64,000 bases of DNA from Aquitalea magnusonii. Its GTDB lineage: Bacteria; Pseudomonadota; Gammaproteobacteria; Burkholderiales; Chromobacteriaceae. The translations under genes and the position numbers were made by a program. Every line of letters begins with the position of its first letter. The stretch's first letter is position 1. The stretch covers positions 1,922,001 through 1,986,000 of the forward strand of contig NZ_AP018823.1 in the NCBI RefSeq assembly GCF_002217795.2, given 5' to 3'. This document shows, piece after piece, positions 56,868 to 64,000 of the stretch. A model generated the notes under the pieces. That model made no database searches. It had not been told where the DNA came from and saw only the letters and a list, made by a program, of their open reading frames with translations.

Positions 56868-59741
56868 ATGCAACTGACCACCTTTGAAGGGCAAACCGCT
56901 GCCGAACTCGGCCGTGCCGCCGCCCCCCAGGCCGACTTCAGCCACTACAAGACCATTCGCCGCAATGGTGCCGTGGTGGCGTTCGAGCCGGTCAAGATCT
57001 CCATCGCCATGACCAAGGCATTCCTGGCCGTGATGGGGCATCAAGGCGCCACCTCCGCCAGCATTCGTGACAAGGTGGCCCAACTGACCGAACTGGTGGT
57101 CAACGCCCTGATGCGTCGCAAGCCGGAAGGCGGTGCCATCCACATCGAAGACATTCAGGACCAGGTAGAACTGAGCCTGATGCGCTTTGGCGAACACGAC
57201 GTAGCCCGCGCCTACGTGCTGTACCGCGAACAACGTTCGCAAGAGCGCGCCGCCCGTGGCGAAGCGCTGACCCAGATCCAGATCAACGTCATCCGCAAGG
57301 ATGGCCGCAAGCAGCCGCTGGACATTCCCCGCCTGCGCGCCGGCATCGAATCCGCCGCCCAGGGCCTGGCCGGTATCGACATCGACGCCATCCTGTCCGA
57401 AACCCTGAAGAACATCTACGACGGCGTATCGCTGGACGAAGTAAACAAGTCCGCCATTCTGGCCGCCCGCTCCATGATCGAACAGGACCCGGCCTACGAC
57501 TACGTCACCGCCCGCCTGCTGCTGGACAGCATCCGACTGGAAATCATGGATGAATCGGTAAGCCAGGAAGAAATGGCCGAGCGCTATGCCGACTACTTCC
57601 CGCAATTCATCAAGAAAGGCATTCAGGCCGAACTGCTGGACGAACGCCTGGCCGAGTTCGACCTGAAAAAACTGGGTGCCGCCCTGGACCCGAAGCGCGA
57701 CCTGAAATTTGGCTACCTGGGCCTGCAAACCCTGTTCGACCGCTACTTCCTGCACATCGACGGCACCCGCATTGAAATGCCGCAGGCCTTCTACATGCGC
57801 GTGGCCATGGGCCTGGCACTGAACGAAGTGAACCGCGAAGCCCGCGCCATCGAGTTCTACAACGTGCTGTCCAGCTTCGACTTCATGTCGTCCACCCCCA
57901 CGCTGTTCAACTCCGGCACCCGTCGCAGCCAACTGTCCAGCTGCTACCTGACCACCATTGCCGACGACCTGGACGGCATTTACGAAGGCCTGAAGGAAAA
58001 CGCCCTGCTGTCCAAATTTGCCGGCGGCCTGGGCAACGACTGGACCCCGGTGCGCGCCATGGGCTCCCACATCAAGGGCACCAACGGCAAGTCGCAAGGT
58101 ATTGTTCCCTTCCTGAAAGTAGTCAACGACACCGCCGTGGCGGTGAACCAAGGTGGCAAGCGCAAGGGCGCGGTATGCGCCTACCTGGAAACCTGGCACG
58201 CCGACGTGGAAGAGTTCCTGGAACTGCGCAAGAACACCGGTGACGACCGCCGCCGCACCCACGACATGAACACCGCCAACTGGATTCCGGACCTGTTCAT
58301 GAAGCGCGTGATGGAAGGCGCGGAATGGAGCCTGTTCTCCCCGTCCGAAACCCCGGACCTGCACGACCTGTACGGCGCCGCCTTCGAAAAGCGCTACCAG
58401 CACTACGAAGCCATGGGCGAACGTGGCGAGCTGAAAGTGTACAAGCGCATTCCGGCCCTCAGCCTGTGGCGCAAGATGCTGACCATGCTGTTTGAAACCG
58501 GTCACCCGTGGGTTACCTTCAAGGACCCGTGCAACATCCGCAGCCCGCAACAGCACATGGGCGTGGTACACAGCTCCAACCTGTGCACCGAAATCACCCT
58601 GAACACCAACGACGACGAAATCGCCGTGTGCAACCTGGGTTCGGTCAACCTGGCCGCCCACATGGGTGCCGATGGCAAACTGGACGCCGAGAAGCTGCAA
58701 CGCACCATCCGCATTGCCCTGCGCATGCTGGACAACGTGATCGACATCAACTTCTACCCGGTGAAGAAGGCACGCAACTCCAACCTGAAGCACCGTCCGG
58801 TGGGCATGGGCATCATGGGCTTCCAGGACTGCCTGCACATGAAGCGCGTACCGTACGCCTCGCAGGAAGCGGTTGAATTTGCCGACGAATCCATGGAAAT
58901 GGTGGCCTACTACGCCTACTGGGCAGGCACCGAGCTGGCCGAAGAACGCGGCCGCTACCCGTCGTACAAGGGCAGCCTGTGGGACCGTGGCCTGCTGCCG
59001 CAAGACAGCATCAACCTGCTGGCAGCCGAACGCGGCGGCTACCTGGAAATGGACCGCACCGAACGCCTGGACTGGAACGCCCTGCGTGAACGCATCAAGC
59101 AACACGGCATGCGCAACTCCAACACCCTGGCCATCGCCCCGACTGCCACCATCGCCAACATCATTGGCGTGTCTGCCAGCATCGAGCCGACCTACCAGAA
59201 CCTGTTCGTCAAATCCAACCTGTCCGGCGAATTCACCGTCACCAACGAATACCTGGTGCGCGACCTGAAAAAAGCCGGCCTGTGGGACGAAGTGATGGTT
59301 GCCGACCTCAAGTACTTCGACGGCAGCCTGGGCCGCATCGACCGCATTCCGGCCGAGCTGAAAGCCATTTACGCCACCGCCTTCGAAATCGACCCGAAAT
59401 GGCTGGTGGAAGCGGCATCGCGCCGTCAGAAATGGATTGACCAGGCCCAGTCGCTCAACCTGTACATGGCTGGCGCATCCGGCAAGAAACTGGACGACCT
59501 GTACAAGCTGGCGTGGATTCGTGGCGTGAAAACCACCTACTACCTGCGCACCCTGGCAGCCTCCAGCGCCGAGAAATCCACCGGTCGCGGTGGCGAACTC
59601 AACGCGGTGGCCAGCGGCCTGAACCCGGCTTACAACGCCGCCGCCGAACAAAGCGCCCCGGTAGCCGAAGTGGACAACACCCCGGCCACCGACGCCAAGT
59701 TCTGCAGCATTGACAACCCTGATTGCGAAGCTTGCCAGTAA
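56868..59741 (+). CDS. nrdA: Class Ia ribonucleotide reductase, alpha subunit
   Basis: The 957-residue catalytic subunit reduces ribonucleoside diphosphates. It is longer than E. coli NrdA (761) because of two N-terminal ATP-cone domains (RRNGAVVAFEPVKIS... and VIRKDGRKQPLDIPRL...), the allosteric overall-activity sites. The active-site Cys is in NLCTEI, and the redox-active C-terminal pair is in DCEACQ. The chosen ATG follows AGAGGG; the frame is open about 100 codons further upstream, crossing the promoter. The final 18 bases and stop codon are repeated downstream. nrdB is separated from it by two small genes. Confidence 0.96.
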   Translation: MQLTTFEGQTAAELGRAAAPQADFSHYKTIRRNGAVVAFEPVKISIAMTKAFLAVMGHQGATSASIRDKVAQLTELVVNALMRRKPEGGAIHIEDIQDQVELSLMRFGEHDVARAYVLYREQRSQERAARGEALTQIQINVIRKDGRKQPLDIPRLRAGIESAAQGLAGIDIDAILSETLKNIYDGVSLDEVNKSAILAARSMIEQDPAYDYVTARLLLDSIRLEIMDESVSQEEMAERYADYFPQFIKKGIQAELLDERLAEFDLKKLGAALDPKRDLKFGYLGLQTLFDRYFLHIDGTRIEMPQAFYMRVAMGLALNEVNREARAIEFYNVLSSFDFMSSTPTLFNSGTRRSQLSSCYLTTIADDLDGIYEGLKENALLSKFAGGLGNDWTPVRAMGSHIKGTNGKSQGIVPFLKVVNDTAVAVNQGGKRKGAVCAYLETWHADVEEFLELRKNTGDDRRRTHDMNTANWIPDLFMKRVMEGAEWSLFSPSETPDLHDLYGAAFEKRYQHYEAMGERGELKVYKRIPALSLWRKMLTMLFETGHPWVTFKDPCNIRSPQQHMGVVHSSNLCTEITLNTNDDEIAVCNLGSVNLAAHMGADGKLDAEKLQRTIRIALRMLDNVIDINFYPVKKARNSNLKHRPVGMGIMGFQDCLHMKRVPYASQEAVEFADESMEMVAYYAYWAGTELAEERGRYPSYKGSLWDRGLLPQDSINLLAAERGGYLEMDRTERLDWNALRERIKQHGMRNSNTLAIAPTATIANIIGVSASIEPTYQNLFVKSNLSGEFTVTNEYLVRDLKKAGLWDEVMVADLKYFDGSLGRIDRIPAELKAIYATAFEIDPKWLVEAASRRQKWIDQAQSLNLYMAGASGKKLDDLYKLAWIRGVKTTYYLRTLAASSAEKSTGRGGELNAVASGLNPAYNAAAEQSAPVAEVDNTPATDAKFCSIDNPDCEACQ

Positions 59742-59939
59742 GGCAAGCAAGCAGGATGGATTGATGCGAAGCAACAACCCGGATGGCACCGGAGCAAAGC
59801 GACGGTGTCCAGCCCGCAGGGCGTGCGAAGCTTGCCAATAAGGCAAGCAGAACAATCAGCGGTTGGTGCGAAGCAACAATCCAGCAAGGCGACGGTGTCC
59901 AGCCCACAGGGCGTGCGAAGCTTGCCAGTAAGGCAAACA
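59724..59939 (+). repeat. Three tandem copies of the nrdA 3' end, each a hairpin
   Basis: A 26-base sequence beginning TGCGAAGCTTGCC occurs at 59724-59749 (end of nrdA), 59824-59849 and 59914-59939, 100 and 90 bases apart. Each holds the stem GCTTGCC, loop containing TAA, and GGCAAGC (the last copy has one change, GGCAAAC). Copies two and three belong to longer units (59765-59849 and 59867-59939) that share TGCGAAGCAACAA and GCGACGGTGTCCAGCCC. These may be terminators or mRNA-stabilising elements or an intergenic repeat family. Confidence 0.85.
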
Positions 59940-60106
59940 AGACCAACAGCAACAAACTGGCCGCTCACCCGGCCAGCCCATTTCCAAACCGCTTGCCCGC
60001 AGGCGGTTTCCGAATGGGGAAGTGTAAAAGCAAACAAGATGGCAGCCCGTCAAGGCCAGCCAGCATCTGAACCAAGCCCACAAGGCACCGACAATCAGAG
60101 ATGCCC

Positions 60107-60839: not shown

Positions 60840-60857
60840 ACACGGAGAATGCAAAAC

Positions 60858-61940
60858 ATGTTGAGCTTTGACGATACCCCAGTACAAAAACCGGCAGTCC
60901 CTTCCAGCAACGACAGCCAGCCCAGCGGCCGCGTAAACGCCGTGGACAAGAAAGTCATCAACGGCACCACCGACGTCAACCAGTTGGTACCGTTCAAGCA
61001 CAAATGGGCCTGGGAAAAATACCTCGCCCAATGTGCCAACCACTGGATGCCGCAAGAAGTCAACATGCAGCGCGACATCGAACAATGGAAAACCGGCCAA
61101 CTGACCGAAGACGAAATGCGCATCGTCAAGCGCAACCTGGGCTTCTTCGTTACCGCCGACAGCCTGGCTGCCAACAACATCGTGCTGGGCACCTACCGCC
61201 AGATCACCAGCCCGGAATGCCGCCAGTACCTGCTGCGTCAGGCCTTTGACGAAGCCATCCACACCCACGCCTACCAGTACATCGTGGAAAGCCTGGGCCT
61301 GGACGAAGGCGAAGTGTTCAACGCCTACAACGAAATCAAGTCCATCCGTGACAAGGACGAATTCCTGATTCCCTTCATCGACGTACTGTGCGACCCGGCC
61401 TTCAAGACCGGCAGCCTGGAAAACGACCAGAAACTGCTGCGCTCGCTGATCGTGTTTGCCTGCATCATGGAAGGCCTATTCTTCTACGTCGGCTTCGTGC
61501 AAATCCTGGCACTGGGCCGTCAGAACAAGATGACCGGCGCTGCCGAGCAATACCAGTACATCCTGCGTGACGAATCCAGCCACTGCAATTTCGGTATCGA
61601 CCTGATCAACACCATCAAGCTGGAAAACCCGCAACTGTGGACCGAAAGCTTCAAGGCTGAAATCGTCGAGCTGTTCAAGAAAGCCGTGGAACTGGAATAC
61701 GCCTACGCCGAAGACACCATGCCGCGTGGCGTGCTGGGCCTGAACGCCAGCATGTTCAAGGAATACCTGCGCTTTATTGCCAACCGTCGCATGCAGCAGA
61801 TTGGCCTGGATCAATTGTTCCCGGGCGTGAACAACCCCTTCCCGTGGATGAGCGAGATGATTGACTTGAAGAAGGAGAAGAACTTCTTTGAGACGCGAGT
61901 TACCGAGTATCAGACTGGCGGTGCGTTGAGCTGGGATTGA
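60858..61940 (+). CDS. nrdB: Class Ia ribonucleotide reductase, beta subunit
   Basis: The 360-residue diiron protein makes the tyrosyl radical for NrdA. Ligands match E. coli NrdB: Asp101 (TADSLAAN), Glu132 and His135 (DEAIH), Glu205 (MEGLFFY), Glu239 and His242 (RDESSH). Radical Tyr139 is four residues after His135. GGAG lies 10 bases before the ATG at 60858 but only one base before the ATG at 60849, so the later start is preferred (difference three residues). Confidence 0.95.
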
Positions 61941-61946
61941 TTTGAC

Positions 61947-62016
61947 TGTCAGAAATCGGAAAGGTTGAAATTTTGTAGTCAAAGTTTGGAATTTCCGATA
62001 GCCAAAGTGTGAAATC
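61947..62016. repeat. Three imperfect direct repeats right after nrdB
   Basis: Starting at 61947, 61977 and 62000 are related 16-base sequences (TGTCAGAAATCGGAAA, AGTCAAAGTTTGGAAT, AGCCAAAGTGTGAAAT). ATCGGAAA (61955-61962) and TTTCCGAT (61992-61999) also form an inverted repeat. They begin seven bases after the nrdB stop and precede the composition change. Confidence 0.55.
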
Positions 62017-62021
62017 TCATT

Positions 62022-62071
62022 TGGCACCAAGAAAAAGGCCCTGTTTTAACAGGGCCTTTTTCTTGGTGCCA
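62022..62071. terminator. Very strong terminator after nrdB
   Basis: Perfect inverted repeat with 22-base arms (62022-62043 and 62050-62071) around TTTTAA. The inner GGCCCTG/CAGGGCC is followed by five T residues on either strand, so it works for nrdB and for the convergent AT-rich gene. Confidence 0.9.
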
Positions 62072-62202: not shown

Positions 62203-64000
62203 TTATTGTGAGCCCATATTCAGTAATAGATGATAAAAAATTATTTCCCGATGACCACGCCAACGTCGTTCCATGCCAATCCATAGATGACCCTTAAAGT
62301 CAAGTGTCCGAATACTACCGTCTGTCAGCGAGTCGATAGTGAACCCAGTGTAGTTTTGGCTCGCAATGAATGCGGAGTAGCCGCTAACCAAAGCATCAAA
62401 ATCATTGACATCGCAATATGCGACGATGAAAACAGGACTAAGAGATTCATTGTCATAGCCTGCGATTTTATTTAGATGATCAGAAATAACCTTGGCGTCT
62501 TTTGAAAACAGCCGAAACGCTTCAAAGATAGAAATTCGTCTGTTTTTTGCATCCGTGATGAAAGCATCAATCTCTCCTGGGCTTTCGCCAGATGTCGACT
62601 TTCCACCTCGCTTCTGATCTCTGAACCCGATACGGGCCTCAGCCATCCGCTTATCAAATAGCGACGTGAACCAATCGTTAATTAAATCCTCTTTGGAAAT
62701 TCGAAAGCTAATACGATCTTCCAGATATTCTGAATGGATTTGCAGGTTTTTTTTCCGCAACAGCAATTCCTGAGCCACCTCAACTACTACATTTTTCAGG
62801 AACTCATGTGGCTCTAGCTCTTGACCAACGATGGTTACATAGTCTTCAAATTCTTTGGATACGATCTGAGAGTAGTGTTTTTTTAGCTGGACTATGCTGC
62901 GTTCCGATGCTTCATTTACCACCTGAATAAGTTGAAGCATGGATTTCTCGTTTGTCTTCACTACTTCATCAGCTAAGTCATCGATCCCCAACTCATCAGA
63001 TGCTTGGAAATTGAGATCCTGGTAGCGGGTTAGAATGTGTTGGGCAATCAGCGTGTCACCACGTTCCATAAGAGCCCTGCAGTAGGGGCGCAGAATTTCT
63101 CGTCGAGCCTGCTGGTCCGGGTTGAGTTTCCCCCAAAAATTGTCGATTTCTTGATCATGAAGCTGTCGGTATGCGTCCAAGATGTGAGCGATCCAGAGCG
63201 GCGGCATATTCTCTGGGGTAAGATCAATTAGGCTGTTGAGAAGCTGAGAAAGTGCATGACGCAGTCCCGTTGTGTCATCATTTATTTCATGGAGAGCCAC
63301 TCGACCTTTGAACAGCATAAAACTGAAGTTGTTGCTTTTATTTTCTTTGCACAACTGTTCCATGATGTCTATACACTTTTCAGGGGATGTTTCGCAATAG
63401 GCAGCCGCAATAATGTAGCGTCTAAACTGCTCGCATTCCCGGTTATATACATCTTCGTCATTTCGTGTAGGACCACCAATATTTTCGTGCGGCATCGAAA
63501 CCTTACGAGCTTCACGGGCATATTCTTCAGGGTGCCCCTTGAATGTTTCTAGGAGTTTGAGTAGGTGCCATTTATACTCATAGATTTGCCATTTTTTGCG
63601 CACCCTCAGAAAATGGGGATTTTTTGTATTGGAAAAACGATCTTGGTCAAAAATGCTTATCGCAGTACCTATTAACCTAGATGCTTGATCATAGTTTCCT
63701 GCATCCCAGGCCGATATGAAGGCTTGCTCAAGGCTAGACAACCCTAAATTTTCGGAATCAGGTGACTGCCGCGTCGCGATTATTTCCTGCAACTCCCGAG
63801 TGCGTGCAATCACATTGCAACGTTCGAGTAATATAAAAAGTTGGTTCAAGGGAACGTATGGCAAGCAACGATCGACTATCTCGTCATACAGCTCCCTCTC
63901 AAGTAGGTTGGTATAAGAACAGAATTGCGACCAAAGATCGTATTTTTCTAGATAAAACGCAGTATCAAATAAGTAAGTAGCTTCTTCGCGAGGACCAAAA
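62203..64000 (-). CDS. Large AT-rich protein of unknown function with C-terminal nuclease-fold-like motif; N-terminus outside window
   Basis: The frame is open from its TAA at 62203-62205 to the right edge, giving at least 599 residues and no start codon that must be used inside the window. Codon and base use are visibly AT-richer than in all other genes here. The N-terminal two-thirds is helical with a repeat-like (TPR/armadillo-style) pattern rich in Leu, Tyr and Glu (YIIAAAYCETSPEKCIDIMEQLCKE). The C-terminal part has GEID (62567-62578), then ISIFEAFRL (codons to 62509), with a later stretch VFIVAYCDVNDF. This order resembles the D...ExK core of PD-(D/E)XK nucleases, but Phe stands where Lys is expected. 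No family is claimed. It is probably horizontally acquired. Confidence 0.75.
   Translation of the reverse strand, partial: FGPREEATYLFDTAFYLEKYDLWSQFCSYTNLLERELYDEIVDRCLPYVPLNQLFILLERCNVIARTRELQEIIATRQSPDSENLGLSSLEQAFISAWDAGNYDQASRLIGTAISIFDQDRFSNTKNPHFLRVRKKWQIYEYKWHLLKLLETFKGHPEEYAREARKVSMPHENIGGPTRNDEDVYNRECEQFRRYIIAAAYCETSPEKCIDIMEQLCKENKSNNFSFMLFKGRVALHEINDDTTGLRHALSQLLNSLIDLTPENMPPLWIAHILDAYRQLHDQEIDNFWGKLNPDQQARREILRPYCRALMERGDTLIAQHILTRYQDLNFQASDELGIDDLADEVVKTNEKSMLQLIQVVNEASERSIVQLKKHYSQIVSKEFEDYVTIVGQELEPHEFLKNVVVEVAQELLLRKKNLQIHSEYLEDRISFRISKEDLINDWFTSLFDKRMAEARIGFRDQKRGGKSTSGESPGEIDAFITDAKNRRISIFEAFRLFSKDAKVISDHLNKIAGYDNESLSPVFIVAYCDVNDFDALVSGYSAFIASQNYTGFTIDSLTDGSIRTLDFKGHLWIGMERRWRGHREIIFYHLLLNMGSQ

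Follow-up and report, generated by a model that had tools for sequence, protein, structure and literature searches.

A gene cut by the right edge of the 64,000-nucleotide stretch of Aquitalea magnusonii DNA analysed here (the window; positions 1922001-1986000 within one 4.85-Mb contig) encodes a 1256-residue protein that, in our reading, rather likely provides single-gene immunity to phages or other incoming DNA; in it a helical sensor would be joined to a nuclease effector. The gene itself, its vehicle, its neighbours, its conservation and the sharing of its C-terminal domain are read from sequence. The open reading frame (ORF) lies on the minus strand with its stop codon at 62203, and runs for 598 codons (window positions 62203-64000) before the edge; the complete gene in the genome has 1256 codons (L003:4203-7973, minus strand, equal to window positions 62203-65973). 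The original prediction, made from the window alone, had not included this doubled length, the Tn7-like vehicle of the gene or the presence of its C-terminal domain on other large proteins. The parts of the gene that fall in the window are as follows (TPR, tetratricopeptide repeat):

62203..64000, minus strand: last 598 of the 1256 codons (those for the N-terminal part lie beyond the window, L003:6001-7973)
62854..64000, minus strand: largely helical region resembling TPRs, from about residue 659 to 1040 (predicted model)
62206..62691, minus strand: PD-(D/E)XK-like C-terminal domain, residues 1095-1256 (model and conservation)

The search for relatives gave 148 homologues at E ≤ 0.001, and the details below rest on the 120 listed, which are 39-87% identical and mostly full length. 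Since these homologues exist and the ratio of nonsynonymous to synonymous substitution rates (dN/dS) was 0.25 for the one divergent pair compared (L006 vs L019), the gene is real and conserved; a chance open frame is ruled out by the full-length homologues and the same dN/dS. A promoter scan found 0 promoters. The gene is AT-rich and accessory: its content of guanine and cytosine (GC) is 0.451, and that of its third codon positions (GC3) 0.447, vs 0.554 and 0.783 for nrdB, the host gene before it. The final two kilobases (kb) of the window have a GC of 0.439 and 0.449, vs mostly 0.55-0.65 earlier. The claim that everything up to nrdB has host-like, GC-rich composition and the edge gene does not was therefore right about the gene and broadly right about the rest, with another dip, to 0.523, at 6-7 kb of the window. 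The gene is not a universal resident of this locus with host-like codon use: it was found in one of ten genomes of the genus (one of the ten being only 61% complete) and in one of 369 genomes of the class, its own in both cases, and its codon use is unlike that of the host.

Residues 1-1049 were modelled as mostly helix with one TPR-like part, in line with the helical, repeat-like region proposed earlier, and the predicted arm would be a mostly helical solenoid of about 1040 residues, TPR-like from about 740 to 1040; we infer a sensor role for this part. In the AlphaFold2 model of residues 940-1256 (mean predicted local distance difference test score, pLDDT, 78.9), the core has the order helix-strand-strand-strand-helix-strand, as in PD-(D/E)XK enzymes, with D1136 and E1151 on the second and third strands, which agrees with the nuclease-like C-terminal segment of the original prediction. 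The best VIA-align matches of the C-terminal model include BstYI, BamHI and McrC, all at a moderate Z < 8, and RPB5 chains are also among the structural matches. A Foldseek search of the C-terminal model against PDB and viral structures returned nothing at E ≤ 0.001, and sequence searches of PDB gave only FAF1 at E 0.06 with one query (A4) and nothing with another (A1).

Like the fold, the active site is predicted. The GEID and IFEAFRL segments correspond to residues 1133-1136 and 1149-1155 of the full protein, and the candidate catalytic residues, counted among those of the 120 listed homologues that cover each position (116 or 117), are:

62689..62691, minus strand: E1095 codon, motif I, in the domain's first helix; kept in 117 of 117
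62566..62568, minus strand: D1136 codon, motif II, in GEID; kept in 117 of 117
62521..62523, minus strand: E1151 codon, motif III, in FEAFRL; kept in 116 of 116
62467..62478, minus strand: H1166 to K1169 codons, H-x-x-K in the motif IV helix, proposed shifted lysine; H in 116 of 116, K in 115 and R in one of 116

The usual place of the catalytic lysine, two residues after the motif III acid, holds Phe in all 116 homologues, and Leu or Met in the other groups of proteins that carry the domain. Aligning all groups, in nine rows, shows no change in the acids or the histidine, and at position 1169 eight rows have K and one has R; among the proteins of one group (the G960 family), three have K there and two have R. 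The last 166 columns of the main family are also its best conserved, with 47 of 166 at ≥95%; the five 200-residue blocks that precede residue 1001 have 12-25 such columns each. Other PD-(D/E)XK families are described in PMC1913061 as having the motif III lysine relocated to the motif IV helix, where it is often replaced by arginine. Because H-x-x-(K/R) is invariant and this precedent exists, we read the Phe as compensated: the motif III lysine looks shifted to the motif IV helix, not lost, and the C-terminal domain is probably active. The original prediction had left a choice between a shifted Lys/Arg and a non-catalytic binding domain, and the invariant motif in the next helix favours the former.

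The latter would make the C-terminal domain a non-catalytic, DNA- or RNA-binding module of the PD-(D/E)XK fold, and the whole protein a DNA-bound receptor or scaffold. The Phe found throughout the family would suit such a module, as would the matches to RPB5, a non-catalytic relative of the fold, and the fusion of a DNA-binding MvaT domain of the xenogeneic-silencer type behind the nuclease-like domain in two homologues (P0058 and L023, L023:9875-11299; 57.4 and 64.7 bits, cut-off 27; L024 is identical to L023 across the compared gene). However, binding-only PD-(D/E)XK members usually lose their catalytic residues, and here three acids and H-x-x-(K/R) are invariant across sequence-distant groups, beyond the needs of a binding surface; we consider this explanation unlikely. 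The MvaT fusion bears also on the substrate, as it makes DNA a fitting one. It thereby argues, together with the DNA restriction enzymes that are the closest listed folds, against an effector that acts on RNA (e.g. tRNA or mRNA) and halts growth instead of cutting phage DNA. The PD-(D/E)XK fold includes RNA-acting members and the present data do not tell DNA from RNA, and we give an RNA target the same low credence as a purely binding role. A P-loop was considered for the loop before GEID (residues 1124-1132), which resembles Walker A (GxSxSGKS) in many relatives, some strict Walker A pattern being present in 35 of the 120 homologues vs a shuffle mean of 4.95; in this protein the loop reads SGES and it varies among relatives, and we take it as a resemblance.

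The 1256-residue protein has no fitting family in Pfam, NCBIfam, PADLOC or PHROGs; in PADLOC-DB 2.0.0 (5027 models, newer systems lying outside that copy) 0 families matched at E ≤ 1. Its only match of P-loop nucleoside triphosphatase (NTPase) type is AAA_10 (E 0.0033; 17 bits, cut-off 27.5), inside the helical part, and it contains no Walker A pattern. Among the open-licence papers searched, we found no title or abstract that describes the protein, which does not prove that there is none. No curated library names the family, and it is probably a large sensor-effector immune protein not previously described. Avs and other STAND/NLR-type receptors with a nuclease end likewise combine a large, repeat-type part with an exchangeable nuclease-like effector; unlike them, this protein lacks a P-loop NTPase family match and a Walker A, and its nuclease sits at the C-terminus. 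With the PD-(D/E)XK families DUF506, DUF790 and DUF1626, whose motif III lysine has moved to the motif IV helix (PMC1913061), it shares the order of elements, the acids of motifs I-III and a Lys/Arg in the helix that follows strand three, but its sequence shows no detectable kinship with any Pfam family or solved structure, and its domain sits on a 1040-residue helical arm.

The same C-terminal domain recurs on other proteins. Its profile matched in four of 398 genomes in a search of the phylum and in five of 399 in a search of the order, the own genome being among both. Two of the matched proteins (G705 and G1083; 1217 and 1206 amino acids) form one family that ends in the domain, and a third (G960; 1281 amino acids) belongs to five proteins of 1280-1282 amino acids including itself. 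These two further families, of 1206-1282 amino acids (L054:5948-9793, L032:5367-9020, L053:9336-12956), had no NCBIfam match and, for L032, the only one scanned, no Pfam match. A fourth protein (G602, in L033), one of nine related proteins including itself, has 335 amino acids and is encoded downstream of an AAA_15-type ATPase gene (two-gene unit L033:5257-8016); it has the same domain with all five key residues, no match to a defence model and, unlike the 1256-residue protein, no large helical arm, its partner ATPase being a separate gene related to the PADLOC models NsnB and AriA. By hhalign, the C-terminal domain alone is common to these groups. The profile also matched G719, another protein of the main family (counted as one with L019), and G901, a disrupted copy belonging to the third family. 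One more match (G953, L055, E 6.8e-4) resembled, on visual inspection, a subunit of a type I restriction system, and hhalign did not detect the domain in it; it was dropped. A tentative generalization, which we put forward as a possibility below even chances, is that the domain would be a portable nuclease effector forming a type by itself (E, D, E, H-x-x-K/R), attached to three or more unrelated receptor bodies, each about 1050-1110 residues long, and also present in the two-gene ATPase form, and that the 1256-residue family would be single-protein, NTPase-free receptors in which the arm senses and the tail cuts.

As for its vehicle, the gene is, to judge from the ends and transposition genes around it, carried as cargo by a Tn7-like transposon of 19.65 kb that lies behind nrdB. 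The relevant features in the window are (bp, base pairs):

60849..61940, plus strand: nrdB, ribonucleotide reductase small subunit, host gene before the transposon (an ORF, presumably nrdB)
61947..62030, no strand: left end of the Tn7-like element, starting TGTCA, seven bases past the nrdB stop
62022..62071, no strand: perfect inverted repeat of 24 bp flanked by A/T-rich sequence, resembling a bidirectional terminator, in the element end

The element begins with TGTCAGAAATCGG at window position 61947, and its other end, TGTCAATGTCGG in inverted orientation, lies at genome position 2003600, which gives a length of 19,654 bp. Its flanks, TTGAC vs TAGAC, are identical at four of five bases, and a 5-bp target duplication is therefore without clean support; the right end is backed by another genome of the genus (G748), in which nrdB runs directly into sequence 83% identical to the DNA past the end. 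After the genes next to the 1256-codon gene, the plus strand carries a BcepMu gp16-type helix-turn-helix gene followed by co-directional tnsA, tnsB, TniB-type tnsC and tniQ, with PF08722, Mu-transpos_C, TniB and TniQ all above cut-offs. The 3' part of nrdB was matched in nine of the ten genus genomes at 91-98% identity (own genome included). In two of them (G750 and G751) nrdB is followed by the same left end, a similar hairpin and tns-like DNA (72-84% identity), with other genes in between. The cargo of G751 includes one protein that matches IetS (E 2.2e-47) and one that matches UvrD-type helicase models in PADLOC. That of G750 includes an 871-residue HD-CE and HATPase protein (L047:12658-15273) and a 1289-residue protein with sub-threshold matches to the Cap4 nuclease and nSTAND1 and no PADLOC model (L047:8716-12585); three G750 cargo proteins, one of them the HD-CE and HATPase protein, gave no PADLOC match. 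Behind nrdB of G748 there are LmuB-like (1.4e-65) and LmuA-like (2.2e-23) proteins by PADLOC. The 3' end of nrdB thus seems to be a recurrent landing place of Tn7-like elements in the genus, with differing predicted cargo (L047, L048, L045). In a term search limited to their main text, nrdB was absent from the Tn7 surveys PMC8649781 and PMC10293859. Just past the right end of the element lies a gene for a 763-residue ABC-type ATPase (L004:4149-6440, minus strand) that matches the PADLOC candidate PDC-S06 (E 5.2e-64). Short direct repeats of 28-68 bp, spaced by 90-100 bp, occur at window positions 59724-59950, between two genes preceding nrdB.

The original prediction placed the gene at the edge of a defence island, and the next genes bear this out. 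Rightward of it and on the same strand are a 94-residue ORF, then HerA (NF042944, 940.9 bits, cut-off 850) and DUF4297 (NF042945, 480.5 bits, cut-off 300), the last two adjacent with frames overlapping by 4 bases and having close relatives of solved structure, e.g. 8xau and 8xav. DUF4297-HerA is described as a two-component anti-phage complex that cuts double-stranded DNA (PMC11291478). The pair and the 1256-residue protein lie side by side in one element and would both end in nuclease action; the pair consists of two proteins with an ATPase, whereas the 1256-residue protein has no ATPase family match and does not accompany the pair elsewhere. Being on the same strand, neighbouring and in the same transposon, the gene might be a third subunit or regulator of HerA-DUF4297. 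We rejected this as highly improbable: no relative of HerA or DUF4297 turned up at the 22 other loci with homologues (several contigs being short), intergenic gaps and the 94-residue ORF separate the genes, GC3 is 0.447 vs 0.705 and 0.733 for the pair, and the published complex is two-component. The 94-residue ORF (L003:8221-8505, minus strand) was likewise rejected as a partner of the gene, having no family match (Pfam, NCBIfam, PADLOC, PHROGs) and no relative at the 22 loci.

The listed homologues are unnamed or "hypothetical", with the exception of one source label, and those with a named source are from Proteobacteria. Matches were found in five of 72,556 plasmid records and at two loci in viral contigs, and an alignment-based search of genome contigs gave 16 loci; a scan of genome contigs with the single protein as query was unproductive, phage records gave no match by tblastn, and the DNA of one homologue gave none in E. 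coli genomes by blastn. Neighbours were scanned with Pfam at 15 of the 22 loci (30 proteins) and with PADLOC at six loci (nine proteins), some of which had been picked on prior Pfam or annotation pointers, and the PADLOC matches therefore give no frequency estimate. These matches were Old and a reverse transcriptase (L005), NERD (L011), PDC-S06 (L012) and ThsA (L020); the neighbours in L015 and L016 had none. Broken copies of the gene occur in L008, L017, L022 and L023. One contig from a viral collection carries a haemolysin-family gene near the homologue (L027:16416-18266) and may therefore be partly host DNA. Because neighbours and carrying elements vary across loci, the gene is, as far as these contexts tell, one that moves independently among islands and elements.

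This distribution also bears on whether the protein is a nuclease-bearing accessory with another role, in competition between mobile elements, control of the transposon or DNA repair. The gene does ride Tn7-like elements (its own, and tns-like genes lie 4-5 kb from the homologue in L015 and L020), and it occurs on plasmids and beside conjugation-type genes (TraI_2-type, L011 and L022). It is not bound to one kind of element, however, and its commonest recognisable special neighbours, where tested, are defence genes, so we consider such a role very unlikely.

For the immune protein that we favour, we infer sensing, cleavage and defence as follows. The helical arm would recognise a phage product or a phage-made complex, and this recognition would free or dimerise the C-terminal nuclease. 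The nuclease would then cut DNA, that of the phage or all of it, using metal ions coordinated by E1095, D1136 and E1151 and with K1169 taking over the role of the usual motif III lysine, and the infection would end through direct restriction or cell death. The protein would work without HerA-DUF4297, and the pair would be a second, independent defence in the element.

If this is true, the known defence genes would be joined by an undescribed one of fairly wide distribution (one search gave 148 homologues). Its effector domain, with readable active-site residues and recurring on other unnamed large proteins, would then offer a handle for finding defence systems, and the 3' end of nrdB, with its Tn7-like elements of changing defence cargo, would be a useful place to look for more.
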